From assembly GCF_003336805.1 (NCBI RefSeq), contig NZ_QFWJ01000002.1, positions 456,844 through 520,843 on the forward strand: DNA of 64,000 nt, written 5' to 3'. Shown here piece after piece: positions 13,127 to 38,216 of the stretch. The notes under the pieces are model-generated. The model searched no databases. It was not told the origin of the DNA and was given only the letters and a program-made list of their open reading frames with translations. This DNA comes from Marinospirillum perlucidum (GTDB taxonomy: Bacteria; Pseudomonadota; Gammaproteobacteria; Pseudomonadales; Halomonadaceae). The number at the start of each line of letters is the position of its first letter. Positions within the stretch are counted from its first letter, which is position 1. Position numbers and translations under genes: made by a program.

Positions 13127-14232
13127 GAGCTAGCTCCTGTTTCAGGTGTCGCTTCTGGCGGAGGCCCGGCATCCAGGGGCAGCAGAAGAACAAATTCAGT
13201 GTGTCCCGGGCGGCTGGTGCATTCGATCAATCCCTGGTGTTTTTGCAGGGCCGCCTGGGCGATGGTCAGCCCCAGGCCGGTGCCTTCGGCACGACCACTG
13301 ACCATGGGATAAAAGATATTTTCCAGCATGCCTTCGGGTATGCCCGGGCCGTTGTCGATAATCTTGACCTGGCAAACCAGGCGATGGCGCTCGGCACCCA
13401 GAGTGAACTGGCGCTTGGCCCGGCTTTGTAGTTGGATGCGGCCGTTGGACTGGCCGGATTCAATCAGGGCTTGCATGGAATTGCGTACCACATTAAGTAC
13501 CGCCTGGATCAGTTGCTCCTTGTCACCCAGAAATTCCGGCAGACTGGGATCATAGTCGCGAACCAGCTTGATCTGCTCGCCAAACTCGGCCTGGGCCAGA
13601 GTGTAGACCCTTTCCAGCACTTCATGGATATTGAGCATTTCCAGGCTCGGCAGGTGTCTGGGGCCGAGCATGCGATCCACCAGATTTCTCAGGCGGTCGG
13701 CTTCATTGATAATGACCTGGGTGTAATCCTTCAGGTCCTGGTTGGGCAGAGTGCGTTCCAGTAATTGCGCTGCACCACGAATACCGCCCAGTGGATTCTT
13801 GATTTCATGGGCCATGCCGCGCACCAGCGCACGGACGGTTTCCTGCTTGTTAACCAACTCTTCTTCACGGGAAATACGCAGCTGACGATCACGGGGAAAA
13901 ACTTCCAGGATGACCTGGGTATTGATCAGTTCAGCGATGGGGGATGCCGTGTAATCCACGGTGATGGTTTCGCCGTTATGAAGCTGAAAGAGGGCTTCAC
14001 GCTTGGTGTAAGGATGGCCGGTGTCGGCGGCGTGAACCAGGGTATCCAGACCGGAATCAGGTTCCTGGAAAAGCTGGGTGATGGGTTGATTGCGAAATCG
14101 AGTCAAACTGGCTGCCAGGAGCATCTCCGCTGCAGGATTCATGTAGATTAGCTGCAAATCCTGCTCCAGTAGCAGGACTGCAGTGGTCAGATTCTCGAGC
14201 AGATGGCGTGGCAATTCCGGAGCCGAATTCAT
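13123..14232 (-). CDS. ntrB: Nitrogen regulation sensor kinase NtrB
   Basis: NtrB is a cytosolic histidine kinase/phosphatase that sets NtrC phosphorylation according to PII signals. The 369-residue protein has an N-terminal PAS domain (about 10-120), a HisKA helix with the phosphorylated histidine in GMAHEIKNPLGGIRGAAQLL, and a HATPase domain with N, G1 and G2 boxes (VLNVVRNSMQAL, IIDNGPGIP, GTGLGLTIAQ). There is no membrane segment, as expected. It is the first gene of an ntrBC operon; glnA, often its upstream neighbour, is not present, and the operon has its own candidate sigma54 promoter at 14293-14309. Confidence 0.95.
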   Translation of the reverse strand: MNSAPELPRHLLENLTTAVLLLEQDLQLIYMNPAAEMLLAASLTRFRNQPITQLFQEPDSGLDTLVHAADTGHPYTKREALFQLHNGETITVDYTASPIAELINTQVILEVFPRDRQLRISREEELVNKQETVRALVRGMAHEIKNPLGGIRGAAQLLERTLPNQDLKDYTQVIINEADRLRNLVDRMLGPRHLPSLEMLNIHEVLERVYTLAQAEFGEQIKLVRDYDPSLPEFLGDKEQLIQAVLNVVRNSMQALIESGQSNGRIQLQSRAKRQFTLGAERHRLVCQVKIIDNGPGIPEGMLENIFYPMVSGRAEGTGLGLTIAQAALQKHQGLIECTSRPGHTEFVLLLPLDAGPPPEATPETGASS

Positions 14233-14292: not shown

Positions 14293-14309
14293 TGCAAAAG
14301 TCGCACCAA
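14293..14309 (-). promoter_or_regulatory. Sigma54 (-24/-12) promoter of ntrBC
   Basis: The reverse strand reads TTGGTGCGACTTTTGCA. It keeps the essential GG and GC with exactly 10 bases between them and resembles the consensus TTGGCACG-N4-TTGCA. The predicted start of transcription is near 14282, about 50 bases before the ntrB start codon. Sigma54 control of ntrBC implies that NtrC raises its own level under nitrogen limitation. Confidence 0.7.
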
Positions 14310-14384: not shown

Positions 14385-14401
14385 TGCACTATAAGTGTGC
14401 T
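14385..14401. promoter_or_regulatory. Candidate NtrC enhancer site upstream of ntrBC
   Basis: TGCACTATAAGTGTGCT is a near-dyad close to the NtrC consensus (TGCACC, five bases, GGTGCA). Its centre is about 110 bp upstream of the predicted sigma54 start, the usual enhancer distance. A weaker half-matching dyad (CGCACCAACATGGTTAA, 14302-14318) overlaps the promoter itself. Confidence 0.5.
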
Positions 14402-23741: not shown

Positions 23742-25556
23742 CTAGGTCTGACTCTGCATATAGGCTCGCCAGCCGCCGTATTCGGTAATGTCCGTAGCCT
23801 CTTCCAAGGCCTGGGGCTCGCAAATAAAGCCCTTCACCTGACGACCATCTTTCAGTGTCAGATTGCCGATGCCCAGGGGCGCAGGCACTTCCTCCACAAA
23901 AGCACCGAACAGAGCTTTGGGCAGATCCCAGACTTCTACCTGAATTGCGGCTCCCCCTTCATCAACCTTGACCAGACCGGGCTTGGGTGGTTGGGTGCCG
24001 GCCAGGGCATAAAGGCGGTATTCGGCGGATGTTTCCGTGGTTTCCACCAGACGGGCTGCCCGACTGCTTAACTGGAAGTTCAAAGGCATACCGGTCAGGT
24101 GAGCACCTACTACGGCCAGACGTACAGCCTCGGGGGCAACAGGTTTCAGCGCCTGAGGCTGAGCAGGGAAAGGCTGGCCGGTAGCCCCCAGGGGCAGGGC
24201 CAAATGGCTCTGCCAACGCTGACCAAATTCAGCCAGGGCAGTGTCCTGCCAGGCCGTGGATATCAGCGTGATCCCCAGCGGCAAACCATCTTCACGAAAG
24301 CCAGCGGGTAGCGCCAGAGCGCTGAGATCAGCCAGATTGGTGAAATTGGTGTAGGTGCCAAACTGACTGTTATACACCAGCGGTTCCTGCTGCATTTCTT
24401 CCAGGGTTCTTAGGGTGGGCGAGGTGGGCACGACCAGAGCATCCACCTGCTGCAGCTGCTGCTGAATTTGACGGCTTAACTGCTGGCGCCGGTACTCACC
24501 ATCAAAGCACTCAACCGCGGAGATATTACGGCCCTGGGCGATGATGGTGTAAATGCTGGGGTCCAGCTTTTCCGGCTGATCCAGGAGTTCACCCAGGGCA
24601 TGGGTTCTTTCTGCAACCCAGGGGCCCTGATAAAGAAGTGCTGCCAATTCACTGAAAGCAGAGAAATCAATTTCCACCAGATCGGCCAGTTTCTCCAACT
24701 CCTGACGAGCTTGGGCGAAGGCAGCCTGCATCTGTTGATCGCCAAAAAACTCCAGCTGGTCGGGGATGGCCAGGCGAGGGCGCGCAGGCAAGGCGACCGG
24801 GGTGGTTTGCGGATGGGCTCTGGACCAGGGATCCTGGGGGTCGGGTTGTTTGCCACCCGCCAGACGTGTGATCACCAGGGCATCCTCAACGGTGAGGGCA
24901 AAAACCGAGACACAATCCAGACTTCTGCAGGCGGGCACCACCCCGCGGGTTGAGAGCCAGCCACGGGTGGGTTTGAGTCCGACCAGGTTATTGAAGGCTG
25001 CTGGCACCCGGCCGGAACCGGCGGTATCCGTTCCCAGGGCAAAGGGAACCAGTCCACGGGCAACCACAGAAGCTGAACCGGAGCTGGAACCCCCGGAGAC
25101 ATAATCCGGATTAAAGCTATTGGGAACCGCACCATAGGGAGAACGGGTGCCCACCAGGCCGGTCGCGAACTGATCCAGATTGGTCTTGCCGATGACCAGG
25201 GCACCGGCCTGTTTCAGTTCAGCCACGACGGCGGCATCCTCTTCTGCTTCATAGGCAAACGCCGGACAGGCAGCGGTCGTGGGCCAGCCAGCCGCATCAA
25301 TATTATCCTTGATGGCAAAGGGAACACCGAATAACGGCAGGGTCTCACCGGCAGCTTTTCTTTGTTCGATCGCTTGCCATTGCTGCTCCACAGCTTCTTC
25401 CGGCGCCAGATACAGCCAAGCCGGGTCGCTTGATTGCTGTTGTTCTTCGCGTAGGTAGCTCAACAGGTTTTGCACCCGCTCCAGCCCCTGGCCTTGCTGC
25501 TGGGCATTTTGCCAGTCCTGCAGGGTCCAGCCTCGGGTTGTCAGACTTTTAGTCAT
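23742..25556 (-). CDS. atzF: Allophanate hydrolase, last step of guanidine breakdown
   Basis: Allophanate hydrolase splits allophanate into ammonium and CO2. The N-terminal amidase domain (about 1-440) has the Ser-cisSer-Lys triad: the lysine in FAIKDNID and the serines in GGSSSGSASVVARGLVPFALGTD(TAGS). The C-terminal domain (about 475-604) is the one special to allophanate hydrolases and helps make the final product. The protein has 604 residues, normal for AtzF. Its start overlaps the carboxylase stop by 4 bases. In the guanidine pathway allophanate comes from carboxyguanidine through the two DUF1989 proteins encoded upstream, not from urea. Confidence 0.93.
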   Translation of the reverse strand: MTKSLTTRGWTLQDWQNAQQQGQGLERVQNLLSYLREEQQQSSDPAWLYLAPEEAVEQQWQAIEQRKAAGETLPLFGVPFAIKDNIDAAGWPTTAACPAFAYEAEEDAAVVAELKQAGALVIGKTNLDQFATGLVGTRSPYGAVPNSFNPDYVSGGSSSGSASVVARGLVPFALGTDTAGSGRVPAAFNNLVGLKPTRGWLSTRGVVPACRSLDCVSVFALTVEDALVITRLAGGKQPDPQDPWSRAHPQTTPVALPARPRLAIPDQLEFFGDQQMQAAFAQARQELEKLADLVEIDFSAFSELAALLYQGPWVAERTHALGELLDQPEKLDPSIYTIIAQGRNISAVECFDGEYRRQQLSRQIQQQLQQVDALVVPTSPTLRTLEEMQQEPLVYNSQFGTYTNFTNLADLSALALPAGFREDGLPLGITLISTAWQDTALAEFGQRWQSHLALPLGATGQPFPAQPQALKPVAPEAVRLAVVGAHLTGMPLNFQLSSRAARLVETTETSAEYRLYALAGTQPPKPGLVKVDEGGAAIQVEVWDLPKALFGAFVEEVPAPLGIGNLTLKDGRQVKGFICEPQALEEATDITEYGGWRAYMQSQT

Positions 25557-28500
25557 CTTGGCTCTCCTTGGTTTTCCAGGGGTTGCAGAATACTGGTGAT
25601 CTGACCGGGGGAAACCCGGCTACCGGGCTGAACCCGGTGTTCCAGTAGAATTCCGGCTTCAGCAGCTATCACGGGAATCTCCATTTTCATGGATTCCAGA
25701 AGCATCAGGGTTTCCCCGGCCCGAACCTCGTCACCGGGTTGCTTCAAGAGTTCCCAGACACTGCCAGCAACAGGACTATCGGCCAGCAGGCTGCCTTCCG
25801 GCCAGTCTTCCTCCTGCGTGGGTGGTTCGGCTTCTTCTTCGGCAAAGTTGAACTGGCCATCGGCATGCCAGCGGGCCAGTTCTTCATCAAAGGCCTGCTG
25901 CCTTTTTTGGGTAAAGGCCTGGATGCCCGTTGCTTCTTGTTCCAGGAAGGCCTGGTAATCTGCCAGGCTGAAAGAACCCTCTTCGATCTTCAGTGGGTAG
26001 CGCCCCTGGGGAAAATCCTTGCGGATCTGTTGCAGTTCATCATGGCTGACTTCATAAAAGCGCAGCTGGTCGAAAAAGCGCAGCAGCCAGGGCTGGCTGA
26101 ATTCGCGTGTCTGGCGATAGCGGTTCCACATCTGCAGGGTACGACCAACAAATTGATAGCCGCCGGGTCCTTCCATGCCGTAGACACAGAGGTAGGAACC
26201 ACCGATGCCTACGGAGTTTTCCGCCGTCCAGGTGCGTGCCGGGTTGTATTTGGTAGTGACCAGACGATGTCTGGGGTCCAGCGGTGTGGAAAGCGGCGCG
26301 CCCAGGTAAACATCGCCCAGGCCCATGACCAGGTAGGAGGCCTCGAAAAGGATGCGTTTGACCTCGTCCAGGCTTTCCAGGCCGTTAATGCGGCGAATGA
26401 ACTCCAGATTGCTCGGGCACCAGGGCGCATTCTTGCGCACCAGTTGACTGTATTTTTCGATGGCCAGCCGACAGGCTTCATCATCCCAGGAAAGAGGCAG
26501 CCAGACAGTGCGTGAAGGCACGGCCAGATGTTCCAGTTCGCTGGCCAGGCGTTTTTCCGTTAGACGCAGTTGTTCAAGCAGTTGCTCACGTGGCAGCACC
26601 AGAGGATCAAAATGGATCTGCAGGGAGCGCACGCCGGGGGTCAGCTCGCGAATACCCGGCAAGGCCGCTTGCTGCAGTGCTTGCATCAGTGCATGGGCAC
26701 GAAAGCGCAGCCGCAAATCCAGCTCCTGCTCACCATATTCCACCAGCAGGAAGTGATCACCCGCTGCGCGCACCAGGATGCGATCACGGAATTCCTCGGC
26801 CGGGAATTCGGCCAGCAGGGGCGAAAGATCCTGGGTCTCTGACCAGTTGACTTCTTGAGGTTGCAACTGGGTGATGGCTGTCTTTTGCGCTTTTTCCAGT
26901 TGTTCAGCGGTTTCTAGGCTCACCGGTTGGAAACGCAGACGATCTCCGGCCCGCAACTGACCCAGCTTCCACAGATCCGCCGTGATCACCGTGGCGGGGC
27001 AGACAAAACCGCCCAGCGAGGGGCCATCCGGTCCCAGAATGACCGGCATATCGCCGGTAAAATCGATACTGCCATAGGCATAGGCATTATCGTGGATGTT
27101 GGAAGGATGCATGCCTGCCTCACCGCCATCGGGGCGGGCCCATTGGGGTTTGGGGCCGAGCAGACGAATGCCGGTGCGGCTGGAGTTGTAGTGAACCTCC
27201 CAGTCGCTGGCAAAAAAGGTCTGGATGTCCTCGTCGGTGAAATAATCCGGGGCACCATGAGGGCCGGAAATTACCCGGATGCGCCATTCGTGACCCACCT
27301 GGGGTCGCAGTGCTTCGGGCACCTTTTTTTCCGGTGGTTCTGCGCCTGGGTTTTTCAACCGCAAGACATCGCCGGTACGCAGGGCGCGGCCATTGTGGCC
27401 ACCAAATTGGCCCAGCGTAAAGGTGCTGCTGGAGCCCAGGTACTCGGGGCAATCCAGGCCGCCAGCGACACACAGGTAGCTGCGACTGCCGGTTTCGATG
27501 CGGCCAATGCTGAGTCGATCCCCGGCCTGCAATTGGATGATTTCCCAGCAGGAGCGAGGCTGATCATTCACCAGAACCTCGACCTGGGCCCCGGTCACCG
27601 CGACGGCTAAGGCGGTGGAAACAGCCAGGGTTGGGCCCTGGAGGGTGATTTCCAGCCCGGTGGCTGTTTCCGGGTTGCCCAGAAGCCGGTTGCCCAGGCG
27701 GAAAGAGTAGTGGTCAAAAGGCCCGGAAGGGGGAACACCCACATCCCAATAACCCTGGCGGCCGGGATAATCCTGCAGAGTGGTCAGGGTTCCGGCCTGA
27801 AGCACATCCAGACGTTGGGGCTGGTAAGTAAACTCGTTCAGATAAGCGGTGGTGACCTGACCGGCTTGCAGGCAGGGGTCTTGCAGCAGGGCCTGCAGGT
27901 AGTCCAGATTGGTTTCCGTGCCGTAAAGACGTGTGGCTTGCAAGGCCTGAAGTAGCAAGGCCAGAGCCTGGTCACGATTCTCTCCCTTCTGGATCACCTT
28001 GGCCAACATGGGATCAAAAAGTGAGGGGATTTCCAGACCAGCTTCGATCCAGGTGTCGACCCTTAAACCTGGCTGGTGTGGAAAATGAACGTCACTCAAA
28101 AAACCGGGGCAGGGCTGAAAGTTACGCCAGGGATCTTCGGCATAAAGGCGAACCTGAAGGGCATGGCCCTGGGGGTTCAAGGCCTGACGACGTTGATCCA
28201 GTTGCAGATCTTCACCGGCAGCCAGGCGCAGCATCCATTCCACCAGATCTACGCCATAGACTTCTTCGGTGACGCCATGCTCCACCTGCAGGCGAGTGTT
28301 TACTTCCAGAAAATAAAAATCACCGCTCTGGGCATCGTAGATAAATTCCACGGTCCCGGCGTTGCGGTAGTTTACGGCCGCCAACAGTCGCTCTGCGGTT
28401 TCATGTAGCTGCTGGCGCTCAGCAGTTGTGAGGCCGGGTGCAGGACATTCCTCGACGACCTTCTGGTTGCGCCGCTGGCTGGAACAGTCTCTTTCACCCA

Positions 28501-29167
28501 GCGCCAGGGCCTGGCCCTGACCATCGCCAAATACCTGAACCTCAATATGGCGGGCAGCCTCTACAAATTTTTCCAGAAAAAGGCTGCCATCAGAGAAGTT
28601 ATTGCTGCTCAGACGACGAACCCGGTCAAATGCCTTTTCCAGCTCCCCGGCGCTGCGGCAGACTTCCATCCCGATACCGCCGCCACCGGCTGTGGATTTC
28701 AGCATTACCGGGTAGCCAATCCGTTCGGCTTCCTGCAGGGCTGCAGCCGGGTCAGCTAAAAGTCCCGAACCGGGCAGGAGGGGGACCTGGGCCTTTTCGG
28801 CCAGGGCCCGAGCTTGGTGCTTGAGACCAAAATCAAGAATCTGCTGGGGCGTGGGCCCGATAAAGACGATACCGGCTGCTTCACAGGCCGCTACAAAATC
28901 AGCGTTTTCACTTAGAAAACCATAGCCCGGGTGGATGGCTTCTGCGCCTGCTTGCTGGGCGATTTGCAGCAGCTTGTCAGCATTAAGATAGGTGTCTGCA
29001 GCACTGGCGTCACCCAGTGACCAGGCTTCATCCGCCAGTTGTACATGCAGGCTGTCCCTGTCCTGCTCGTGATAGACAGCAACTGCCTGGATACCCAGTT
29101 TTTTAAAACTACGCAGTAGCCTGACCGCAATAGCGCCGCGGTTGGCAATCAAGACTTTGGAGAACAT
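25553..29167 (-). CDS. Biotin-dependent guanidine (urea-type) carboxylase
   Basis: A 1204-residue single-chain carboxylase annotated in most genomes as urea carboxylase. The domains run: biotin carboxylase with ATP-grasp (1-450; MLKSTAGGGGIGMEV, YRNAGTVEFIYD, EVNTRLQVEHGVTE), a KipA-like and a KipI-like half of the carboxyltransferase (about 460-1060), and a C-terminal biotin-carrier domain with the biotinylated lysine in LLESMKMEIP. It uses ATP and bicarbonate to carboxylate its substrate. Because the operon is behind a guanidine-I riboswitch and contains the DUF1989 pair, I infer that guanidine is the physiological substrate. The residues that separate urea from guanidine enzymes were not checked. 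Confidence 0.9.
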   Translation of the reverse strand: MFSKVLIANRGAIAVRLLRSFKKLGIQAVAVYHEQDRDSLHVQLADEAWSLGDASAADTYLNADKLLQIAQQAGAEAIHPGYGFLSENADFVAACEAAGIVFIGPTPQQILDFGLKHQARALAEKAQVPLLPGSGLLADPAAALQEAERIGYPVMLKSTAGGGGIGMEVCRSAGELEKAFDRVRRLSSNNFSDGSLFLEKFVEAARHIEVQVFGDGQGQALALGERDCSSQRRNQKVVEECPAPGLTTAERQQLHETAERLLAAVNYRNAGTVEFIYDAQSGDFYFLEVNTRLQVEHGVTEEVYGVDLVEWMLRLAAGEDLQLDQRRQALNPQGHALQVRLYAEDPWRNFQPCPGFLSDVHFPHQPGLRVDTWIEAGLEIPSLFDPMLAKVIQKGENRDQALALLLQALQATRLYGTETNLDYLQALLQDPCLQAGQVTTAYLNEFTYQPQRLDVLQAGTLTTLQDYPGRQGYWDVGVPPSGPFDHYSFRLGNRLLGNPETATGLEITLQGPTLAVSTALAVAVTGAQVEVLVNDQPRSCWEIIQLQAGDRLSIGRIETGSRSYLCVAGGLDCPEYLGSSSTFTLGQFGGHNGRALRTGDVLRLKNPGAEPPEKKVPEALRPQVGHEWRIRVISGPHGAPDYFTDEDIQTFFASDWEVHYNSSRTGIRLLGPKPQWARPDGGEAGMHPSNIHDNAYAYGSIDFTGDMPVILGPDGPSLGGFVCPATVITADLWKLGQLRAGDRLRFQPVSLETAEQLEKAQKTAITQLQPQEVNWSETQDLSPLLAEFPAEEFRDRILVRAAGDHFLLVEYGEQELDLRLRFRAHALMQALQQAALPGIRELTPGVRSLQIHFDPLVLPREQLLEQLRLTEKRLASELEHLAVPSRTVWLPLSWDDEACRLAIEKYSQLVRKNAPWCPSNLEFIRRINGLESLDEVKRILFEASYLVMGLGDVYLGAPLSTPLDPRHRLVTTKYNPARTWTAENSVGIGGSYLCVYGMEGPGGYQFVGRTLQMWNRYRQTREFSQPWLLRFFDQLRFYEVSHDELQQIRKDFPQGRYPLKIEEGSFSLADYQAFLEQEATGIQAFTQKRQQAFDEELARWHADGQFNFAEEEAEPPTQEEDWPEGSLLADSPVAGSVWELLKQPGDEVRAGETLMLLESMKMEIPVIAAEAGILLEHRVQPGSRVSPGQITSILQPLENQGEPR

Positions 29168-29235: not shown

Positions 29236-29877
29236 TCAATGATCCCAGACCAGGAGTTCAACCGGTGTGGGGTTATAGCCATTGCAGGGGTTGTTCAACT
29301 GGGGGCAGTTGGACAGCAGCACCAGGACATCCATGCAGGCGGTCATTTCCACGTATTTACCGGCTCCGGAAATGCCATCCTCGAAAGTCAGTCCTCCTTC
29401 CGGGGTGACGGGCACATTCATGAAAAAATTGATGTTATGGCCGATGTCCGCCTTGGTCAGTCCCAGTTCCGGCTGCTCGGCAATGGCCAGCATCCAGCTG
29501 TCTCGACAGGCGTGCATGCAGCGTTTTTCCAGGTCGTAGCGTACGGTGTTGCTTTCCGTGGCGCAGGCTCCGCCCAGGGTGTCATGGCGGCCACAGGTGT
29601 CGGCAACGATTTCCAGCAGGGGTCTTTGTCGGTTGGAAAGCAGGCGGCTGCCGGTCGTCAAGTAGACGGCCTGCTGGGCCTGAACTGTATCCTGGGCACT
29701 GTAGCGTTCCTGGGGATCTTCGGCATTGTAGAAGAGGGTATCTGCAGCCTGGTTGCCTTCCAGATCCAGAATCCTCAGGGTTTGTCCCTGCTTGATACGA
29801 CCCAGGTAGTAATCGCCGGAATCGATGGTTTTTCTGAAGACAGCCGTTTCCGGGGTGCGCTCACTCGTGGTTAGCAT
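29236..29877 (-). CDS. DUF1989 protein, candidate carboxyguanidine deiminase subunit
   Basis: A 213-residue DUF1989 (urea carboxylase-associated) protein. With its neighbour it resembles the CgdA/CgdB pair shown in other bacteria to deiminate carboxyguanidine to allophanate; I have not assigned which is which. It starts at ATG 29877, 6 bases after AGGAG. Features are [43 protein letters not shown] and a cysteine-rich RCMHACRDS, then [10 protein letters not shown] and [18 protein letters not shown]. The cysteine pattern is absent from its partner, hinting that the two subunits do different jobs. It is 68 bp upstream of the carboxylase gene. Confidence 0.88.
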
Positions 29878-29887
29878 GGTGATCTCC

Positions 29888-30607
29888 TCAGCGTCCGAGA
29901 TAATAAAGGGCGTTGTTCTGGAAACCGCGCTGATTTTCAGGGCGGAAGTTGCGGTTGTAGTCGTCTTTCTGGACCGGCTCGGCCAATCCCAGTTCCAGTT
30001 TGACCGGGCTGGCCGGGTAGCTGTCACTGGTGTCCAGCGGGTGGGGGCAGGTATGCAGCAGCACCAGGGTATCCATCTCGAAACGTAGAGTGACCTGGTC
30101 TCCGGCCTGGCTGGCGCTGGTGTCCAGCTGCATTTTGCCGGCTTCATCGGTGCGCACCAGGCTGAAGAAATTGAGGTTGGAGGCCAGATCCTTCAGGCCC
30201 AGGCCGTATTTTTCCAGCTCCACCAAAAAGGCATCCTGACCATTCTGCAGCCAGGCATTGCGATCCTTCTGGTAATCCCGCTGGCCCCAGCGTTCTTCGG
30301 TCAGGGCCGCAGAGGTATTGCCGCAAACACTGTCGTGGCCGGGAGTGGAGTCTTCCGTGATGGAGGCAAAAATGCGCCCCATATCGGAATAGAGGCAATG
30401 CCCGCGAGTGAGTCGAAAGGTATGCTGGCATTTCAGAGTGTCCGGGGCGTTGTATCTTTCCAACAGATTCTCGGGGTTGTAAAAGAGCATGCCCAGGTTG
30501 GCACTGCCGTGAAGATCGGTCAGGCGCAAACAGGTGCCTCTGGCCATACGCAGGGACCAGTGGCCACCCGGGCTGATTTCCGTGGTGTATTCGATCGATT
30601 TAATCAT
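29888..30607 (-). CDS. DUF1989 protein, second candidate carboxyguanidine deiminase subunit
   Basis: A 239-residue DUF1989 protein, homologous to the next gene ([74 protein letters not shown]). I start it at ATG 30607 ([10 protein letters not shown]), inside the last codons of the ATPase gene (8 bp overlap); the frame stays open upstream, but that part is shadow of the ATPase. Ten bases separate it from the following DUF1989 gene, so the two are made together, as expected for a heteromeric enzyme. The role is inferred from the published CgdAB work and from the riboswitch. Confidence 0.88.
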
Positions 30608-31370
30608 GGGTAGACCCCTTGAGATTTTCTTCAATGGTTTCCAGTTCTTTGGGATCCGGCTGACCCACCGGCAGATCGTAGGTAATGCCCGCACCATAGG
30701 CATCGGGTGCCTGGGGGTCCTGACGCAGCTTGTCAAAAACCCAGAGGCGGGTGCCCAGATAAAAGCCTTCTTCCAGATCATGGGTGACCATGAAAACGGT
30801 CAGCTTTTCGGTACGCCAGAGATCCAGAACCAGCTCGTGCATATCCTTGCGAATGCCCGGGTCCAGGGCACCGAAGGGTTCATCGAGCAGAAGGATGCGT
30901 GGCTTGCCCAACAAGGCCTGGGCGATGGCCAGACGCTGGCGCATGCCCCCGGATAGCTGGTGGGGGTAGAGTTGCGCCGAAGCACTCAGACCGACCTTTT
31001 CCAGAAGAACCTGGGCTTTTTTCCTTGCCTCTCGGCGTTTTTTGCCCCAGAGCAGGCCGGTAAAGCCGGGTTGCTTGAAGCCTTCAGCGGCAATGACATT
31101 GTCCAGCACCGTCATGTGGGGAAAGACGGAATACTGCTGAAAAACGATGCCCCGGTCACGATCCGGCTCGGCCTTGATGGCCTGGCCATCCATTAGCAGT
31201 TGCCCGCGACTGGGTGTTTCCGTACCCAGCAGCATTTTGAGAAAGGTGCTCTTGCCACACCCGGAAGCACCCACCAGGGTAATGAATTCACCCTCCTCAA
31301 CCCGGGCGTTAATGCCTTCCAGAACCACCTTGTCTCCATAGTTTTTCCAGAGGTTGCGTACTTCAATCAT
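30600..31370 (-). CDS. ABC transporter ATPase, probable guanidine importer
   Basis: A 256-residue nitrate/taurine-type ABC ATPase. All the motifs are intact: Walker A GASGCGKST, Q-loop VFQQYSVFP, signature LSGGMRQR, Walker B ILLLDEPFGALD and the switch histidine in VMVTHDLEEG. The C-terminal 40 residues extend past the usual domain (DAYGAGITYDLPVGQPDPKELETIEENL). It overlaps the permease gene by 4 bases and the DUF1989 gene by 8. The transporter is the type always found with 'urea carboxylase' operons; behind a guanidine riboswitch the likely cargo is guanidinium. Confidence 0.92.
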   Translation of the reverse strand: MIEVRNLWKNYGDKVVLEGINARVEEGEFITLVGASGCGKSTFLKMLLGTETPSRGQLLMDGQAIKAEPDRDRGIVFQQYSVFPHMTVLDNVIAAEGFKQPGFTGLLWGKKRREARKKAQVLLEKVGLSASAQLYPHQLSGGMRQRLAIAQALLGKPRILLLDEPFGALDPGIRKDMHELVLDLWRTEKLTVFMVTHDLEEGFYLGTRLWVFDKLRQDPQAPDAYGAGITYDLPVGQPDPKELETIEENLKGSTHD

Positions 31371-32188
31371 GCGCCACCTCCGTGACCATGCCAGGGGAAG
31401 AGTTTGCGATTGACGCTGACCAGCAGCCAGTCGAGCAGGAATGCCAGAAAGGTAATCCAGGCCACATAGGGCAGGATGACATCCATGGACATATAGCGAC
31501 GGACCAGAAAGATGCGATAGCCCAGGCCTTCAGTGGAGGCGATGGCTTCGGCAGCAATCAGGAAAAGCCAACCGGTACCCAGCGACAGGCGCACCGCATC
31601 CAGCAGGCGAGGGGTTAGCTGCGGCAGCAGTACCCGAATCAGAACCTGGCTGGTATTGCCACCCAGGGTCTGGGCCTTGATCAGCTGTTCCCGGGGGATT
31701 TCCAGGGTTCGCTTTTGCATATCCCGGGCGATAAAGGGCGTGATGCCGATGGCAATCAGCGCGACCTTGGCCACCTCACCCAGCCCGAAGACAATAAAGA
31801 GCACCGGCAGTAAAGCCAGGGGCGGAATCAGGGAAATCACCGTCAGGACCGGAGAAAAACTGGCGCCCACCAGAGGCAGGGCGCCGGTCAAAAGCCCAAT
31901 CAACAAGCCGAAGGAAGCAGCAATCAGCACACCCAGCAGCAGACGTTGCAGGCTGCTGAAGGTGTCGACCCAAAAGAGATATTCTCCGGTTCGGCGATTG
32001 GGCTCGAAAGCCATGCGCTGGATGGCTTCCCCCATCTGAGTGAAAGACGGCAAGAGCTTATCACTGGGATTGGCTTCCAGGCGCAGGTCGGATGCCACCA
32101 GATAGATCAGCAGCAGGACCAAAAAGGGCAAACTGCTCAGGAGCATACGACCGGCCGTGGAAGGCTGTTGATTGAGCAGGCGTTTCAT
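31367..32188 (-). CDS. ABC transporter permease, probable guanidine importer
   Basis: A 273-residue inner-membrane permease of the nitrate/sulfonate/taurine type with six or so membrane segments. The EAA loop that contacts the ATPase is visible as QLIKAQTLGGNTSQVLIRVLLPQLTPRLLDAVR. It starts in the last base of the binding-protein stop and ends inside the ATPase gene, so translation of all three is coupled. Residues 30-60 form a long periplasmic part before the first conserved helix pair. Confidence 0.9.
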   Translation of the reverse strand: MKRLLNQQPSTAGRMLLSSLPFLVLLLIYLVASDLRLEANPSDKLLPSFTQMGEAIQRMAFEPNRRTGEYLFWVDTFSSLQRLLLGVLIAASFGLLIGLLTGALPLVGASFSPVLTVISLIPPLALLPVLFIVFGLGEVAKVALIAIGITPFIARDMQKRTLEIPREQLIKAQTLGGNTSQVLIRVLLPQLTPRLLDAVRLSLGTGWLFLIAAEAIASTEGLGYRIFLVRRYMSMDVILPYVAWITFLAFLLDWLLVSVNRKLFPWHGHGGGA

Positions 32189-33243
32189 TAGAGTTCGCCG
32201 TCAGCAGCCAGTTGCATGAACTCGGGGTTGAAGCGCAGTTGAACATTGTTGCTGCTACCCACGAGACCGGCGGGAGTTTCGATACCGATAAAACCGGCAT
32301 CGGGTGCACCTTCGCCGAGAAGACCATGCTGGAAGGAGAAACCGGCGACCTTACGCATGGTTTCGGGCAGTTGTTCACTCAGGGTGAAATCGACCGCTTC
32401 ACCGGCCTGATAGAACATCTCGGTGCTACCCAGTTGCAGTTCATAGCCTTCCAGGTCGGTGCCCGAGGCTTCAGCCATCCAGGTACGTGCTGCGGCTTCG
32501 GCTTCGCCACCGGAACTCATCAGGCTCATGGTTTCATACCAGGCACCGGCCAGGGCTTTCCCCAGTTCGGGGTAGGCTTCCAGGGTTTCGGTATTCACCA
32601 CCAGCAGGTCGATAATCTCACCAGGGATCTGCGAGGAATCAAATACCAGGTTGGTCTCCGGCATGGACAGGATCTCGTTCAGCAGCGGATTCCAGGTGGT
32701 GACTGCGGTCACGGAAGGTGTGGAGGCTGCGGCGACCAGATCGGCATCCGAGGTGTTCACCACGGTGATATCCCTTTCGCTCATGCCTACGCTTTCCAGG
32801 CCACGAGCCAGCAGGTAGTGGGAAACACTCAGTTCGACCAGATTGACCTCCTGGCCGCGAATGGCTTCCAGTTCGTCTTCACCCTTCAGCAGGACGCCAT
32901 CATTACCGTTGGAGAAATCCCCGACGATCATGGCGGTGGAATCCACACCACCGGCAGCAGGAATGGTCAGGGCATCCATGTTGGTCATGGTGCAGCCGTC
33001 AAACTGGCCCAGGGAATACTGGTTGATGGATTCGATGTAATCGTTGATCTGGACAACATCGATATTGATGTCGTATTTGTCGGCCCACTTTTGCACGATG
33101 CCTTGTTCCTGGGCATAACCCCAGGGCATCCAACCGGCATAAATGGACCAGCAGATGCTGAAATCGGTTCGTGCATGAACAGGAGAGGAAAGGACAGAGG
33201 CACTGAGTGCCAGGACGGATAGAGAAGATAAGAGCTTTTTCAT
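32188..33243 (-). CDS. Periplasmic binding protein, probable guanidine importer
   Basis: A 351-residue exported protein of the NMT1/TauA-like fold found with urea carboxylase-type operons. The signal peptide is LLSSLSVLALSASVLSSPVHA. The ligand domain begins ICWSIYAGWMPWGYAQEQGIVQKWADKYDINIDVVQINDYIESINQYSLGQ, and TMTNMDALTIPAAGGVDSTA lines the expected site. The operon's substrate points to guanidinium rather than urea as ligand. It is the first gene of the operon. Its ribosome site (AAGGGGG) is buried in a small hairpin at 33249-33263, below the riboswitch, so translation is probably gated. Confidence 0.9.
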   Translation of the reverse strand: MKKLLSSLSVLALSASVLSSPVHARTDFSICWSIYAGWMPWGYAQEQGIVQKWADKYDINIDVVQINDYIESINQYSLGQFDGCTMTNMDALTIPAAGGVDSTAMIVGDFSNGNDGVLLKGEDELEAIRGQEVNLVELSVSHYLLARGLESVGMSERDITVVNTSDADLVAAASTPSVTAVTTWNPLLNEILSMPETNLVFDSSQIPGEIIDLLVVNTETLEAYPELGKALAGAWYETMSLMSSGGEAEAAARTWMAEASGTDLEGYELQLGSTEMFYQAGEAVDFTLSEQLPETMRKVAGFSFQHGLLGEGAPDAGFIGIETPAGLVGSSNNVQLRFNPEFMQLAADGEL

Positions 33244-33248
33244 GCTTT

Positions 33249-33263
33249 AACCCCCTTCGGGTT
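33249..33263 (-). promoter_or_regulatory. Hairpin that hides the ribosome site of the operon's first gene
   Basis: The transcript reads AACCC, GAAGG, GGGTT: a five-pair stem whose 3' arm and loop contain the Shine-Dalgarno AAGGGGG, 7 bases before the ATG at 33243. It lies directly after the riboswitch and looks like its expression platform, acting on translation. The alternative pairing that opens it was not worked out; GGTT in the riboswitch's 3' end could compete for AACC. Confidence 0.55.
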
Positions 33264-33299
33264 GGTCACAGTTAGAGGAGTATTCCTGGCCAGTGCCAG

Positions 33300-33400
33300 T
33301 AACCTCCCGGGCTTTTGTCCCGCCGTGTGACCTTCCGCAAGAAGGTTGAGTGCTCTCGGACCAGCCAGCCTGATCACAGACCCGGAACCCTAGCGCTCTA
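33300..33400 (-). ncRNA. Guanidine-I (ykkC) riboswitch
   Basis: On the reverse strand the conserved ykkC blocks occur in order: CTAGGGTTCCG (33393-33383), GGTCCGAGAG, ACACGGCGGGA and AAAAGCCCGGGAGG. A variable stem, ACCTTC...GAAGGT, separates the second and third. These are the invariant parts of the class I guanidine aptamer. Outer limits are approximate. The riboswitch precedes the importer-DUF1989-carboxylase-allophanate hydrolase operon and should turn it on when guanidine is bound. Confidence 0.93.
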
Positions 33401-33456
33401 TTGCATTAAATTGTTCAGCATCCTAACCAGAAATACTCGTGATGCCCTGTGAATAT

Positions 33457-33473
33457 TGCAAGCCCCGTACCAG
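33457..33473 (-). promoter_or_regulatory. Sigma54 promoter of the guanidine operon
   Basis: The reverse strand reads CTGGTACGGGGCTTGCA against the consensus YTGGCACG-N4-TTGCW: only one informative base differs, and GG and GC are exactly 10 bases apart. Transcription should begin near 33446, about 45 bases before the riboswitch, giving a leader of about 200 bases. No competing sigma70 promoter was obvious. Confidence 0.8.
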
Positions 33474-33573
33474 AAAGAGCAAAAACCTCCTGGAGAAACG
33501 ATGCCTGCAGGCCTGAAGAAGTTCATGGCAGGCTCGGGATAGGCTGAAGAGGGTCAGGTCCGGTGAAGCAAAA

Positions 33574-33590
33574 TGCATCATAAAGGTGCA
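33574..33590. promoter_or_regulatory. NtrC enhancer site of the guanidine operon
   Basis: TGCATCATAAAGGTGCA matches the NtrC dyad (TGCACC, five bases, GGTGCA) at 11 of 12 informative positions. Its centre lies about 136 bp upstream of the predicted sigma54 start, a normal enhancer distance. It is 197 bp upstream of the divergent TPR-barrel gene, which has no sigma54 promoter that I can see. The short frame at 33423-33638 on the reverse strand overlaps these sites and is not a gene. Confidence 0.7.
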
Positions 33591-33786
33591 TTTATGAAGC
33601 GAAGGCTTGCAAATGGCGCAATAAAAATGGCTCTTCAACCGGGATAAAAAAGAGCTCCCTGGTCGCTGGACCGAGTTGCTAAATGTTAATGGCTATAAAA
33701 TTTGTAACTTTATTGCTAATAAATTGCTTTGCATCATGCTGCTGCCTAGCCTTTAAATGGATGAAAGCCAAACCAACAAGGAGCCT

Positions 33787-35121
33787 ATGCATTCTTTATT
33801 CGTGAAAGGGTTGGTCATTTTGGTCTTCTTACTGGGTATTGCTCCCCTGAGCTTGCAGGCTGCTGGGGTGGTGAGTGAAATGCAACGCTTGAATGCTGAA
33901 CAAGAGTATCAGGAAGCCTTTTTGCTGGGCAGCCGGTATCTGGATTCGAAAGCAGGCGATCCCGAATTTGATCAGGCATTCGGCCGGGCCGCCCTGAAAT
34001 CCGGTCAACTCTATCAGGCTCTTTTTGCCTTTGAGCGGATTCTAATCGTCAATCCCCAGGCTAGCGCACCGAGAATGGAATTGGCCCAGACACACCTGGA
34101 ATTGCAAAACTGGTCTTTGGCCCGTGAGCACTTCCGGCAGCTTCTTGAGGCGGACCCGCCCCCGTCACCCCGAATGCTCGAGAGTATTCGTCGCTACCTG
34201 GTCGAGCTCGACCTGCGTGAACAGGAAGAGGCAACGCTGGTCAGAAGCAGCACAACAAATCGTTATCTGGGCTGGAACCTGGGTTATGACTCCAATGTCG
34301 GTGCCTTGACCAGTGATAATGAAGCCTTGCAACAAAGCCCGCAAGCAAGCAATGAAGTCTTGCCGGACCCGGAAAGTGATTATTTCTCCAACCTTTATGC
34401 AGGGGTTAAGCATTATCAGGTAACAACCGGGGAGCGTGGCTTTTTTTTAGCCGCCGAAGTGAACCGCAAACTTCACCGGCAAAAAAGCAGCTTCAACGAA
34501 ACCGGCCTGGAATTAACCCTGGCCCCCGTTTTTTTTACCGGTGGAGGCCGTCTGGTTTTTCCCGCCAGTTTTCAAAGAAGCAGTCGGAATGATGGCAACG
34601 ACCTGACCCGTCTTGCCTTGGGCGTTAATTACCGCAAACCGGTAGAAGAGACGACCAGCTTGCTGGTCATGGGACGAATGAATCGGGTGGATTACGGTGG
34701 CACGGGTGAACGCGATCTTCGCGGTCGCCTGGTGGGGATGAAGATGGAGTTTCAATTGGCTACCCGCTGGCAGTTGCGCCTGGGTCCCCTGTGGGGTCGT
34801 ACTCAAGCAGAAACCGGCGGTTACGAGTATCTGGGGCGTGACTATCTGGAATTCAGCAGCCGGATCAGCTACCGGGTAGCGGAAGACTTGGGAGGAAGCC
34901 TGGCCTTGGCCACGACCCGCTCGAATTACCAGGAAGAGCATTGGGCATTTGCACGCACCCGCCAGGATGAACTGCAACGTCTGAGTCTGGCCGGCCACTA
35001 CAAGCCCTGGAATGCCTGGGAGTTGGAAGTAAAACTTGAGCAGCTCAACAATGCTTCCAATATCGATTTTTACGCTTACCGGCGAACACAGCTATGGGTA
35101 GGCATTCAGAGAGGATTTTAA
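33787..35121 (+). CDS. TPR-containing outer-membrane beta-barrel protein (Slam-like)
   Basis: I start this at ATG 33787, 4 bases after AAGGAG (444 residues); an ATG at 33757 has no ribosome site. A signal peptide (LVILVFLLGIAPLSLQAAG) is followed by about three TPR-like helical repeats (residues 30-140). The rest looks like a porin-sized barrel: YLGWNLGYDSNVGALTSD, alternating hydrophobic strands, and a C-terminal aromatic (GIQRGF). TPR plus barrel is the plan of DUF560/Slam proteins, which move lipoproteins to the surface, but no cargo lipoprotein is next to it and I would not transfer that role. It opens an operon with a FecR-domain protein (3 bp gap) and an adenylate cyclase. Confidence 0.75.
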   Translation: MHSLFVKGLVILVFLLGIAPLSLQAAGVVSEMQRLNAEQEYQEAFLLGSRYLDSKAGDPEFDQAFGRAALKSGQLYQALFAFERILIVNPQASAPRMELAQTHLELQNWSLAREHFRQLLEADPPPSPRMLESIRRYLVELDLREQEEATLVRSSTTNRYLGWNLGYDSNVGALTSDNEALQQSPQASNEVLPDPESDYFSNLYAGVKHYQVTTGERGFFLAAEVNRKLHRQKSSFNETGLELTLAPVFFTGGGRLVFPASFQRSSRNDGNDLTRLALGVNYRKPVEETTSLLVMGRMNRVDYGGTGERDLRGRLVGMKMEFQLATRWQLRLGPLWGRTQAETGGYEYLGRDYLEFSSRISYRVAEDLGGSLALATTRSNYQEEHWAFARTRQDELQRLSLAGHYKPWNAWELEVKLEQLNNASNIDFYAYRRTQLWVGIQRGF

Positions 35122-35124
35122 GTC

Positions 35125-35970
35125 ATGTCTAACCGATTATTACAAAGCATCAAGCGAACCGGCCTGTGGTTGCTAGTGGTCAGCCTTTTGGCAGGTGCCC
35201 AACTGGCTGTGGCTGAACCCACACAGGTTGGCCGGGTTCTGGCAGCCAGCGCCGGGGCAACTGCTCAACAACCGGATCAAACACCCAGAGATCTGCAGCG
35301 GCGTTCTCCTGTTTACCTCGGAGACACCCTGAGAACGACAGAAGAAGCCCGCATGCAGCTACGCATGAACGATGGCGAGATTTTCTCCTTATCCGCAGGT
35401 AGTGAACTAGTGATCGAAGCTTTTCACTACGCCGGTGAAGATGAGGAGACAGCGGCCGAGGAAAGTAATATCAAGCGTTTGGTCGAAGGAGGACTGAGAA
35501 CCATCACCGGTGCAGTCGGTGGTGAGCGTTATCGTATTGAAAGCCGTGCCGGAACCATCGGAGTGAGGGGGACTTCGTTTTACGCCTTCACCCAAGCGGG
35601 GCAAAACCTGTATGTACGCGGGTTGACCGGCCAGCTGTATCTGGAAAATGAATACGGGGTAGCCGAGTTCGGTGTTGGAGAAACCCATAATTCAGCCCGG
35701 ATTGCAGCCCTGGGGCAAGCTCCCCAGAGCATTGATGCGCGAGATTTACCCGCCAGCTTTAACCGAGCCTTCCAGGAAAGCGGCCGTCCACCCGGATTGG
35801 AGAAGCAGTCGTCTCCGGGACGCAGCCATCGGCCTGCTGCGGGAGTCAATCCGGATGTTGCGCCTGACTTGGGTAACCCTGCACCCGGACGCGCTATGGA
35901 CCCACCTGGCCGTGAAAACGACACCCCGCCAGGACTGGAAGGCCGGGAACCACCCGGACGCAATAAATAA
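35125..35970 (+). CDS. Exported FecR-domain protein with proline/glycine-rich tail
   Basis: A 281-residue protein with signal peptide (LWLLVVSLLAGAQLAVAEP) and a FecR domain (about 55-190): YLGDTLRTTEEARMQLRMNDGEIFSLSAGSELVIEAF, then GERYRIESRAGTIGVRGTSFYAF. FecR domains are periplasmic sensors or anchors. The last 60 residues are low-complexity with repeated PPGLE/PPGRE units and look disordered. GAGG lies upstream of the ATG. It sits between an outer-membrane barrel and a membrane cyclase and could carry the signal between them. There is no sigma factor of the FecI type nearby, so this is not an iron-citrate system. Confidence 0.85.
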   Translation: MSNRLLQSIKRTGLWLLVVSLLAGAQLAVAEPTQVGRVLAASAGATAQQPDQTPRDLQRRSPVYLGDTLRTTEEARMQLRMNDGEIFSLSAGSELVIEAFHYAGEDEETAAEESNIKRLVEGGLRTITGAVGGERYRIESRAGTIGVRGTSFYAFTQAGQNLYVRGLTGQLYLENEYGVAEFGVGETHNSARIAALGQAPQSIDARDLPASFNRAFQESGRPPGLEKQSSPGRSHRPAAGVNPDVAPDLGNPAPGRAMDPPGRENDTPPGLEGREPPGRNK

Positions 35971-35984
35971 CACCCAGCTTGCCG

Positions 35985-38216
35985 ATGCTGAACCCGGTTA
36001 CTTCCCGTCGCCTGGCCAGTCTGCTGGGGCTCCTGCTGGGTGCATTTTTAATGCTGGCACAATCCGGTTGGCTGCCACTGCTGGATCGTCTCTATGAACG
36101 CCTGGAACTTCTGACTTATGACTTTCGCATGCAGCTGCATCTGCCAGCTTCTCCGGGAACAGCCACAACGCCGATCGTTATTGTTGATATTGATGAAGAA
36201 TCGCTGAAGCGAGAGGGTCACTGGCCCTGGTCGCGAAGCAAGATCGCAGAACTGATCAAGGCCATGGATGCAGCAGGCGCAGTCATCATCGGGTTTGATG
36301 TGCTCTTTGCCGAAGCTGAACGCAACCCGGTTGAAGCCATTCAGCAGCAGCTGGATTCAACAGCACCTGCGTTAAGCCAGGATTTCAGATCACAATTGCA
36401 GGCTCTGGCTCCCCGTTATGACGGTGATCGGCTGCTGGCGCAAACCCTGGCGGATCATGAGGTGGTTCTCGGCTATATCTTCAGTCACCAGAACCCCAGT
36501 CACAGCGGTACCCTACCCTCTGCCCTGAATTTACAAAATCCTGGCCGGATAGAAAATTTGGCTTTGCCTTCCATGGCCGGATATACCGCACCTTTACCCC
36601 AATTGGCCGAGGCAGCCATCGGCAGCGGTTTTTTTAGTCTGGCGACCGATAGTGATGGGGTCGTGCGTCGAGCCCCGCTGGTAACCCGTTATGAGGACCA
36701 GCTCTATCCCTCTTTGTCGTTGGAAATGGTGCGCCAATACCTGTTGATTGAGCGACTACAACTGCACACCGAGCGCGTGGGTGGTGAAGAGCAGTTGGAT
36801 TCGCTGGAACTGGGCGGCAGTCTGCGTTTGCCCACAGATGGCTCGGGTCAGTTGCTTATCCCTTTTCGTGGTGGGGCGGGTAGTTTTCCCTATGTCCCGG
36901 CCTGGAAGCTGCTAGCCGGTAAAGTTGAAGATTCACCGCTCTCCGGTGCGCTGGTCCTGGTGGGAACAACCGCCCCCGGTCTGTTTGATTTACGGGCAAC
37001 GCCCGTGGATTCGGTATATCCCGGTGTGGAGGTGCACGCCAATCTGATTGCAGCCATGCTGGATGAACAGTTTCTGACCGAGCCTTCCTGGGCTGTCGGC
37101 GCTAACTGGTTGCTAGCCGGTTCAACCGGGTTGCTGCTGGCATTACTGCTACCCTGGTTATCCCCCTGGGGGCAGGTGGTGTCGGCCTTGTTGAGTGCGC
37201 TAGCCGTGACACTTCTAGTTAGCTGGCTCTGGGCCGTTGAAGGAATCGTCCTGGCACTGGCAATCCCCCTGTTGATGATTTTGCTGCTGGCCGTTTTCAA
37301 TTTTACCTGGGGCTTTTTCGTGGAAACAGTGAACCGGCGGCGTTTGGTCAATATGTTTGGCCAATATGTTCCGCCTTCGCTGGTCGAGGAAATGAGCCAG
37401 CACCCGGATGCTTTCAGCTTTGAAGGGCGATCACGCGAGCTAACCGTACTTTTTTCGGATATCCGTGGGTTTACGGCGCTTTCTGAAAACCTGGAAGCCA
37501 ACCAGCTAAAACACCTGCTCAATCGCTATTTTACCCCTATTACGCGGGATATTTTTCAGCACCGGGGCACCATTGATAAGTACATCGGTGATCTGGTCAT
37601 GGCCTTCTGGGGCGCTCCGCTTAAAGACGCTGAGCATGCTGTCAACGCCATTAAAGCAGGTTTGCAGATTCTGGATACCACCCGTGAACTCAATCAGACT
37701 TTTATCGCGGAAGGCTGGCCGCAGATTGAAGTCGGTATCGGCATCAACAGCGGCTTGATGAATGTTGGTGATATGGGATCGGAATACCGCCGTTCCTATA
37801 CCGTGCTGGGGGATGCCGTTAATCTAGGCTCACGGCTGGAAGGGGCCACCAAATACTATCAAGTGCCCCTGGTGGTGGGCCAACGAACACAGGAATTGGC
37901 TGCAGAACACTTTTTATGGCGTGAATTGGATTTGGTCAGGGTCAAGGGCAAGAGAGATCTGGTTCGGGTTTATCAGCCGCTCTGCCTGAGATCGGAAGCG
38001 ACCTCCCAACAGGAGGCCGAAATAGAAGCGCTGGATCAGGCCCTGATTTATTTCCGCAGTGCTCGTTTGCAAGAAGCACGCAAGGCCTTTGCGCGGCTTG
38101 CTAAGGAGCAGCCCCAGATACGCCTCTATGCGCTTTACCTGGAAAGGCTGGACCTTTTGGAAGACCAGCCCCCGGCCCCTGACTGGGATGGAGGCTGGAG
38201 TTTGCAGGAAAAATAA
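35985..38216 (+). CDS. CHASE2-domain class III adenylate cyclase
   Basis: A 743-residue membrane protein. One N-terminal helix (about 10-30) leads to a large periplasmic CHASE2 domain (50-370: IVDIDEESLKREGHWPWSR, GFDVLFAE). Three membrane segments (about 372-445) and a class III cyclase domain follow. Metal-binding aspartates are in LFSDIRGFTALSE and IGDLVMAFW, the adenine-selecting lysine is in GTIDKYIGD with the aspartate in VLGDAVNLGSRLEGATK, and the transition-state N and R lie in the same stretch. It should make cAMP, not cGMP. About 70 residues after the domain form a helical tail. It ends an operon with FecR and TPR-barrel genes. The start (35985 vs 35979) is not certain. Confidence 0.9.
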   Translation: MLNPVTSRRLASLLGLLLGAFLMLAQSGWLPLLDRLYERLELLTYDFRMQLHLPASPGTATTPIVIVDIDEESLKREGHWPWSRSKIAELIKAMDAAGAVIIGFDVLFAEAERNPVEAIQQQLDSTAPALSQDFRSQLQALAPRYDGDRLLAQTLADHEVVLGYIFSHQNPSHSGTLPSALNLQNPGRIENLALPSMAGYTAPLPQLAEAAIGSGFFSLATDSDGVVRRAPLVTRYEDQLYPSLSLEMVRQYLLIERLQLHTERVGGEEQLDSLELGGSLRLPTDGSGQLLIPFRGGAGSFPYVPAWKLLAGKVEDSPLSGALVLVGTTAPGLFDLRATPVDSVYPGVEVHANLIAAMLDEQFLTEPSWAVGANWLLAGSTGLLLALLLPWLSPWGQVVSALLSALAVTLLVSWLWAVEGIVLALAIPLLMILLLAVFNFTWGFFVETVNRRRLVNMFGQYVPPSLVEEMSQHPDAFSFEGRSRELTVLFSDIRGFTALSENLEANQLKHLLNRYFTPITRDIFQHRGTIDKYIGDLVMAFWGAPLKDAEHAVNAIKAGLQILDTTRELNQTFIAEGWPQIEVGIGINSGLMNVGDMGSEYRRSYTVLGDAVNLGSRLEGATKYYQVPLVVGQRTQELAAEHFLWRELDLVRVKGKRDLVRVYQPLCLRSEATSQQEAEIEALDQALIYFRSARLQEARKAFARLAKEQPQIRLYALYLERLDLLEDQPPAPDWDGGWSLQEK

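Follow-up and report, generated by a model that had tools for sequence, protein, structure and literature searches.

Does the predicted operon for guanidine assimilation in Marinospirillum perlucidum answer to guanidine alone, or is it also placed under nitrogen control? The question is raised by a stretch of 64,000 nucleotides (hereafter the window), in which a preliminary description had pointed out an NtrC dyad, a sigma54 promoter and a guanidine-I riboswitch aptamer upstream of the operon at 33243-23742. This observation is confirmed, the aptamer, the sigma54 element and the dyad being present in the order described. We consider it probable (about 0.78), from the sequence, that they form an AND gate for this operon, in which nitrogen status would be read at initiation through NtrC and sigma54, and guanidine in the leader by the riboswitch.

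The operon and its control region

The operon (33243-23742, minus strand) encodes an importer binding protein, permease and ATPase, UAAP1, UAAP2, a carboxylase and an allophanate hydrolase:

32188-33243, minus strand: ABC importer substrate-binding protein (TIGR03427, 538.7 bits; "putative urea" in NCBIfam, guanidine being the likely substrate)
31367-32188, minus strand: ABC importer permease (PF00528)
30600-31370, minus strand: ABC importer ATPase (PF00005)
29888-30781, minus strand: UAAP1 (TIGR03425, 315.9 bits; match from residue 65 of the listed ORF, a later true start being probable)
29236-30147, minus strand: UAAP2 (TIGR03424, 326.8 bits; match from residue 102 of the listed ORF, a later true start being probable)
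25553-29167, minus strand: carboxylase (TIGR02712, 1817.8 bits; urea carboxylase in NCBIfam, guanidine carboxylase by context)
23742-25556, minus strand: allophanate hydrolase (TIGR02713, 836 bits)

Importer, UAAP1/2, carboxylase and allophanate hydrolase are found together, which is the gene content of a guanidine carboxylase operon. The literature on such operons (available text of PMC12508155 and PMC12186494) indicates that this gene set acts on guanidine, despite the urea names of NCBIfam. Within the window's genus (g1), the aptamer is present in only 2 of the 8 genomes listed, which makes the distribution of the operon patchy there. Its divergent neighbours (33757-38216, plus strand) are, in a row, a TPR protein, a FecR-domain protein and a CHASE2 adenylate/guanylate cyclase.

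The control elements, and the nitrogen regulators encoded in the same window, are the following:

33574-33590, minus strand: NtrC-type dyad TGCACC-TTTAT-GATGCA, matching at 11/12 positions, with its centre at about -136 from the predicted start
33457-33473, minus strand: candidate sigma54 -24/-12 promoter element CTGGTACGGGGCTTGCA, with one mismatch, its position relative to the aptamer being shared by relatives
33446, minus strand: predicted transcription start, placed from the -12 GC at 33458-33459, 42 nt before the aptamer
33302-33404, minus strand: guanidine-I riboswitch aptamer RF00442, covariance-model match of 91.1 bits over the full length (1-107)
33244-33301, minus strand: leader from aptamer to start codon, containing TGTGACC and the ribosome-binding stretch GAAGGGGG
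13123-14232, minus strand: ntrB, nitrogen sensor kinase (NF008293, 373.9 bits)
11687-13126, minus strand: ntrC, sigma54-dependent activator (TIGR01818, 768 bits)

The aptamer, for which the ends first proposed (33300-33400) were correct to within 4 nt, is the sole RF00442 match in the 3.07-Mb genome (whole genome searched; gathering score of 63 bits). It is located 58 nt 5' of the importer gene, with importer, UAAP1/2 and carboxylase downstream, i.e. in the leader of guanidine-related genes.

The sigma54 promoter with one mismatch that had been placed at 33457-33473 was recovered as a GG-N10-GC element (TGGTACGGGGCTTGCA, 33457-33472, minus strand) differing from TGGCACG-N4-TTGCW by one substitution (C to T), and no other site of the window matches with at most one mismatch. 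In the 3.07-Mb genome, TGGYACGN4TTGCW occurs once and 41 sites lie within one mismatch of the consensus; when two mismatches are tolerated, the window holds 17 sites vs 14.3 in shuffles, which is chance level. Sigma54 is encoded elsewhere in the genome (rpoN match of 503.7 bits, G000 C2:72559-74016, minus strand). Counting the usual 12 nt from the -12 GC places the predicted start at 33446. The rpoN match is itself preceded, at a distance of 88 nt, by a one-mismatch sigma54-like site (TGGCACAGTATTTGCT, G000:C2:74104-74119, minus strand), which may reflect self-control of sigma54.

A competing explanation is that these motifs are inherited or fortuitous and that a sigma70 promoter drives the operon, guanidine being the sole signal. 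This is highly improbable: a simple consensus scan detected no sigma70-type promoter in 33150-33760, although such a scan can miss non-consensus sigma70 promoters. Further evidence on both sides comes from the relatives described below.

The dyad claimed at 33574-33590 (TGCACCTTTATGATGCA) is a near-consensus site: it has a single mismatch and is the only match in the window with at most one. Six such sites exist in the genome, among which only this one fits TGCACCN5GRTGCA. Dyad-like sites with up to three mismatches are at chance level in the window (42 vs 41.0 in shuffles). With an upstream dyad close to TGCACCN5GGTGCA and ntrBC encoded, the operon is a candidate member of the NtrC regulon. 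The joint chance of both strong sites at fitting places is below 1e-6 (genome rates, by hand) for patterns chosen post hoc. The claim that ntrBC lies in the window with a similar promoter stood in its first part; the promoter is similar yet weaker, since upstream of ntrB the sigma54-like TGGTGCGACTTTTGCA (14293-14308) has two mismatches and the dyad (14385-14401) has three.

Recurrence and helical phasing in related genomes

Loci were scored for the best sigma54 element up to 140 nt upstream of the aptamer (maximum score 17.2) and for the best dyad 50-135 bp above the sigma54 element (out of 12). The sigma54 consensus and weights were those of general background, and were left unfitted. A core GGcacg-N4-ttGC is given for this element in PMC5491218. 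Three overlapping sets were used, M. alkaliphilum being in at least two of them: a family set of 30 aptamer loci from 30 of the 151 genomes of the family, window included; a phylum set of 56 of the 58 aptamer matches in 398 phylum genomes, the other two (G000, G010) sitting in the family set; and a named set, made of the 80 loci, out of 521, nearest to the importer protein, 73 of which have a recognisable aptamer (the remaining 7 gave no Rfam match and were dropped). EamA-led (efflux-type) matches (L167-L169) were tried as a contrast; they carry no sigma54 element of at least 14, and are weak controls given aptamers below the Rfam cut-off (58.4, 47.2 and 42.6 bits). For this reason TPP riboswitches were taken as control, and 30 of 48 TPP riboswitch matches in 60 genomes were scored identically.

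A sigma54 score of at least 15 was obtained at 62 of the 73 named loci (among the best 80 of 521; shuffles expect 0.2, reversed motif 0), at 32 of the 38 phylum loci led by a binding protein (shuffles 0.1, reversed motif 0) and at 9 of the 18 other phylum loci (shuffles 0.1, reversed motif 0), these nine heading a permease, an NMT1-type binding protein or UAAP1. In the family set, 5 of 30 loci reach 15 (shuffles 0.1, reversed motif 1) and 24 of 30 reach 13 (shuffles 2.2, reversed motif 3), which indicates that the element is often there but weak in the family. TPP riboswitches gave 0/30 at 15, 2/30 at 13 and 0/30 for dyads of at least 10. Such dyads were found at 35 of the 73 named loci (among the best 80 of 521; 0.5 expected from shuffles), 7 of the 38 binding-protein-led phylum loci (0.2), 3 of the 18 other phylum loci (0.1) and 11 of the 30 family loci (0.1); roughly half of the named loci, and the majority of the phylum loci, have no dyad of at least 10. 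The order dyad, sigma54 element, aptamer and importer gene recurs in relatives, and sigma54 element and aptamer are also found together in Caballeronia, Pantoea and Rhizobium plasmid loci. So strong a recurrence of the sigma54 element, with a TPP control of 0/30, argues further against a sigma70 promoter with fortuitous motifs.

Two neighbourhoods contain paired aptamers (L117 and L143 on G500:C13, 4.2 kb apart; L116 and L142 on G337:C1, 4.5 kb apart), and each of these aptamers has its own sigma54 element (15.8) and a dyad of 9 or 10, which suggests that the promoter accompanies each riboswitch copy. At nine loci (L131, L135, L138, L141, L155, L156, L159, L163 and L171), eight of them outside the window's class and the other from Rhizobium binae, 26-29 nt separate the beginning of the sigma54 element from the aptamer; at this distance the predicted start falls on the aptamer's first base, or within 2 nt of it.

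The distances between dyad and promoter fall into clusters at about 58, 68, 80, 91, 100, 112 and 122 bp. Their best period is 10.7 bp (R 0.66, 48 distinct dyads of at least 10), a value reached by 0/5000 uniform draws, and the 43 distinct dyads of exactly 9 have nearly the same phase (R 0.54). With one value per genus label (n=31, a genus possibly appearing under two labels in some cases), the median R is 0.66, vs a 99.9% null of 0.47. Such phasing is the trace that an enhancer having to face the polymerase would leave. The window dyad is the clearest misfit: at 117 bp from the promoter, it deviates by 5.2 bp from the relatives' mean phase, i.e. by half a turn, and it does not lie on the same helix face as their enhancers. 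Enhancer phase is not strictly required where DNA is bent or looped.

This misfit bears on a second rival explanation, namely that the sigma54 promoter is real and answers to an activator other than NtrC (e.g. NtrX), in which case the first signal would not be nitrogen status. The dyad of the congener M. alkaliphilum is also weak (8/12, with the sigma54 element kept at 15.0), and NtrC-like activators are many in genomes of this type (at least 22-32 ntrC-model matches per genome). We nevertheless regard another activator as improbable, given that the window dyad matches at 11/12 positions, that strong dyads in relatives are far above shuffle expectation and phased, and that like-annotated genes of Burkholderia cenocepacia are NtrC-dependent (available text of PMC5491218).

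Loci without the sigma54 element

The rpoN and ntrC genes were sought in 42 aptamer-bearing genomes. Four of these, all from family f55 (G385, G355, G484 and G529), have no rpoN match over the cut-off: nothing was matched in G385 and G355, a 39-bit fragment in G484, and two copies of 275 and 226 bits in G529, vs a cut-off of 277. A sigma54 element of at least 14 was found in 0/4 of them; only three of these genomes count, because G355's own aptamer match is sub-threshold. An ntrC match over the cut-off is lacking in the same four genomes, and in G249, so that rpoN loss and ntrC loss are inseparable within the four. As a guess, f55 corresponds to Rhodobacteraceae, and the clade may represent one event. 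The aptamer word is present, without a sigma54 element, at SC52, a plasmid locus from a named member of the Rhodobacteraceae. In Rhodobacter capsulatus, NtrC is described as independent of sigma54 (available text of PMC5424462).

Among the 38 genomes with rpoN, 33 have a sigma54 element at one aptamer at least, and 5 have none at the aptamers scored (G238, G182, G249 and G512, plus G434, whose aptamer match is sub-threshold). The four with over-threshold aptamers imply that other promoters serve somewhere, which is a point in favour of the sigma70 explanation. At one locus without the element (L139, in G238), the aptamer heads an arginase-family gene, possibly a guanidinase.

By these sequence comparisons, the NtrC/sigma54 and riboswitch arrangement predicted for the window is no peculiarity of this locus but occurs widely. 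We hold it reasonably likely that, across Pseudomonadota, most guanidine-I riboswitches heading guanidine-assimilation operons lie behind a dedicated NtrC/sigma54 promoter, their RNA being absent in nitrogen-replete cells. An old AND gate would then have the riboswitch as its second half; its first half, set at helical-turn spacing, would come with each riboswitch copy and be missing in the family without standard rpoN; the alphaproteobacterial start would fall on the aptamer's first nucleotides, and induction by guanidine vs ammonium would mix two switches.

Leader mechanism and comparison with known systems

In the window's leader, control is probably exerted at translation. The predicted free fold joins AACCTTC of P2 to GAAGGGGGTT and GGTCACA to TGTGACC, and in it the unpaired fraction of the ribosome-binding stretch is 0.11, against 0.35 when the aptamer is held; the stretch is predicted to be masked without guanidine. 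TGTGAC and AACCCGATGGGGGTT are kept in the M. alkaliphilum leader. The pairing of P2 strands with the downstream leader is strong in the window (p 0.07), and also in L037, L039, L041 and L043. As a general mechanism it was rejected, with p at or below 0.05 in only 11 of 103 leaders (about 5 expected).

Alternatively, the riboswitch could act by premature transcription termination, intrinsic or Rho-dependent, which would leave the logic of the gate unchanged. This is a tentative alternative, on the unlikely side. For the V. boliviensis guanidine-I switch, an intrinsic terminator has been presumed, and translation and mRNA level can be linked (available text of PMC12508155). In our simple hairpin-plus-T-run scan, which may miss unusual terminators and is blind to Rho sites, no terminator was found in the window leader (only a weak one, inside the gene), and one was found in 1/74 named leaders, against 0/74 shuffled. 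A terminator is thus disfavoured as the window's expression platform, and these counts, with the fold of the ribosome-binding stretch, favour translational control.

The two-layer reading would then operate as follows. In a nitrogen-starved cell, phosphorylated NtrC, presumably bound at 33574-33590, would activate the predicted sigma54 promoter, and the mRNA would start at 33446. The predicted guanidine-I riboswitch would permit expression only with guanidine, its putative ligand: without it, the P2 strands of the aptamer would base-pair with TGTGACC, further downstream, and with the ribosome-binding stretch GAAGGGGGTT, whereas guanidine would keep P2 closed and free this stretch. Such a gate would spare the cell a costly pathway when ammonium is abundant, and also under starvation if guanidine is absent. 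The earlier proposal of two layers is supported by the recurring motif order, by the TPP control (0/30) and by the B. cenocepacia ntrC data; the AND logic itself is a prediction.

Each layer has published counterparts, given here as far as the available text of the sources goes. In an ntrC mutant of B. cenocepacia H111, the urea carboxylase gene I35_7286 is down by log2 6.0 (RNA-seq). The table that gives this value also lists its importer gene I35_7283 and an associated gene, I35_7285, and sigma54 regulation is stated for 95% of the genes listed there as well (PMC5491218). Sigma54 promoters have been predicted for 102 COG3665 genes, 59% of them named urea carboxylase (PMC12316311). Like-annotated genes are therefore NtrC-dependent or predicted to be sigma54-driven, as proposed here; unlike here, the main texts of both papers do not mention guanidine, and their available text ties no riboswitch to these genes. 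Conversely, the guanidine carboxylase operons under riboswitch control (PMC12508155; review PMC12186494) have the same aptamer class and gene set as the window, and the available text names no NtrC, whereas an NtrC layer is predicted here. The V. boliviensis riboswitch binds guanidine with a KD of 44 uM, and this organism makes the corresponding proteins on guanidine and hardly on ammonium (PMC12508155/PMC12186494); this comparison shifts nitrogen status and guanidine together. The riboswitch also appears upstream of "urtA" in dRNA-seq data of Alcanivorax (PMC9788540). In the open-licence PMC literature, and within the text available, no paper joining the sigma54/NtrC and guanidine-riboswitch layers was found. 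The initial statement that no published example has both layers thus holds, within this literature, for the combination, and needs amending in that sigma54 promoters for "urea carboxylase" had already been predicted (PMC12316311).

These comparisons touch the question of guanidine as food or poison for bacteria: a starvation promoter ahead of the switch would mean that the operon serves nitrogen scavenging in these bacteria. Published induction data would have to be reread, growth on guanidine vs ammonium changing both signals at once. The loci would also provide a two-input gate that is natural and widespread, and whose two inputs can be read from the sequence, as well as comparative material for the study of enhancer phasing at sigma54 promoters.

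The closest known systems, again from the available text, are nasF of Klebsiella (PMC5424462) and gifB of cyanobacteria (PMC6316151). In nasF, general Ntr control is followed by a substrate-specific step in the RNA leader, as proposed here; however, its sensor is a protein, NasR, acting by antitermination at a terminator, whereas here it would be an RNA aptamer with probably translational control. In gifB, a global nitrogen regulator (NtcA) and a glutamine riboswitch act on one gene, again as here, but NtcA represses and both layers signal nitrogen excess, while in the proposed gate the activator would signal starvation and the RNA a specific substrate. What would be new here is the RNA as substrate sensor in the known two-layer logic of nasF/NasR.
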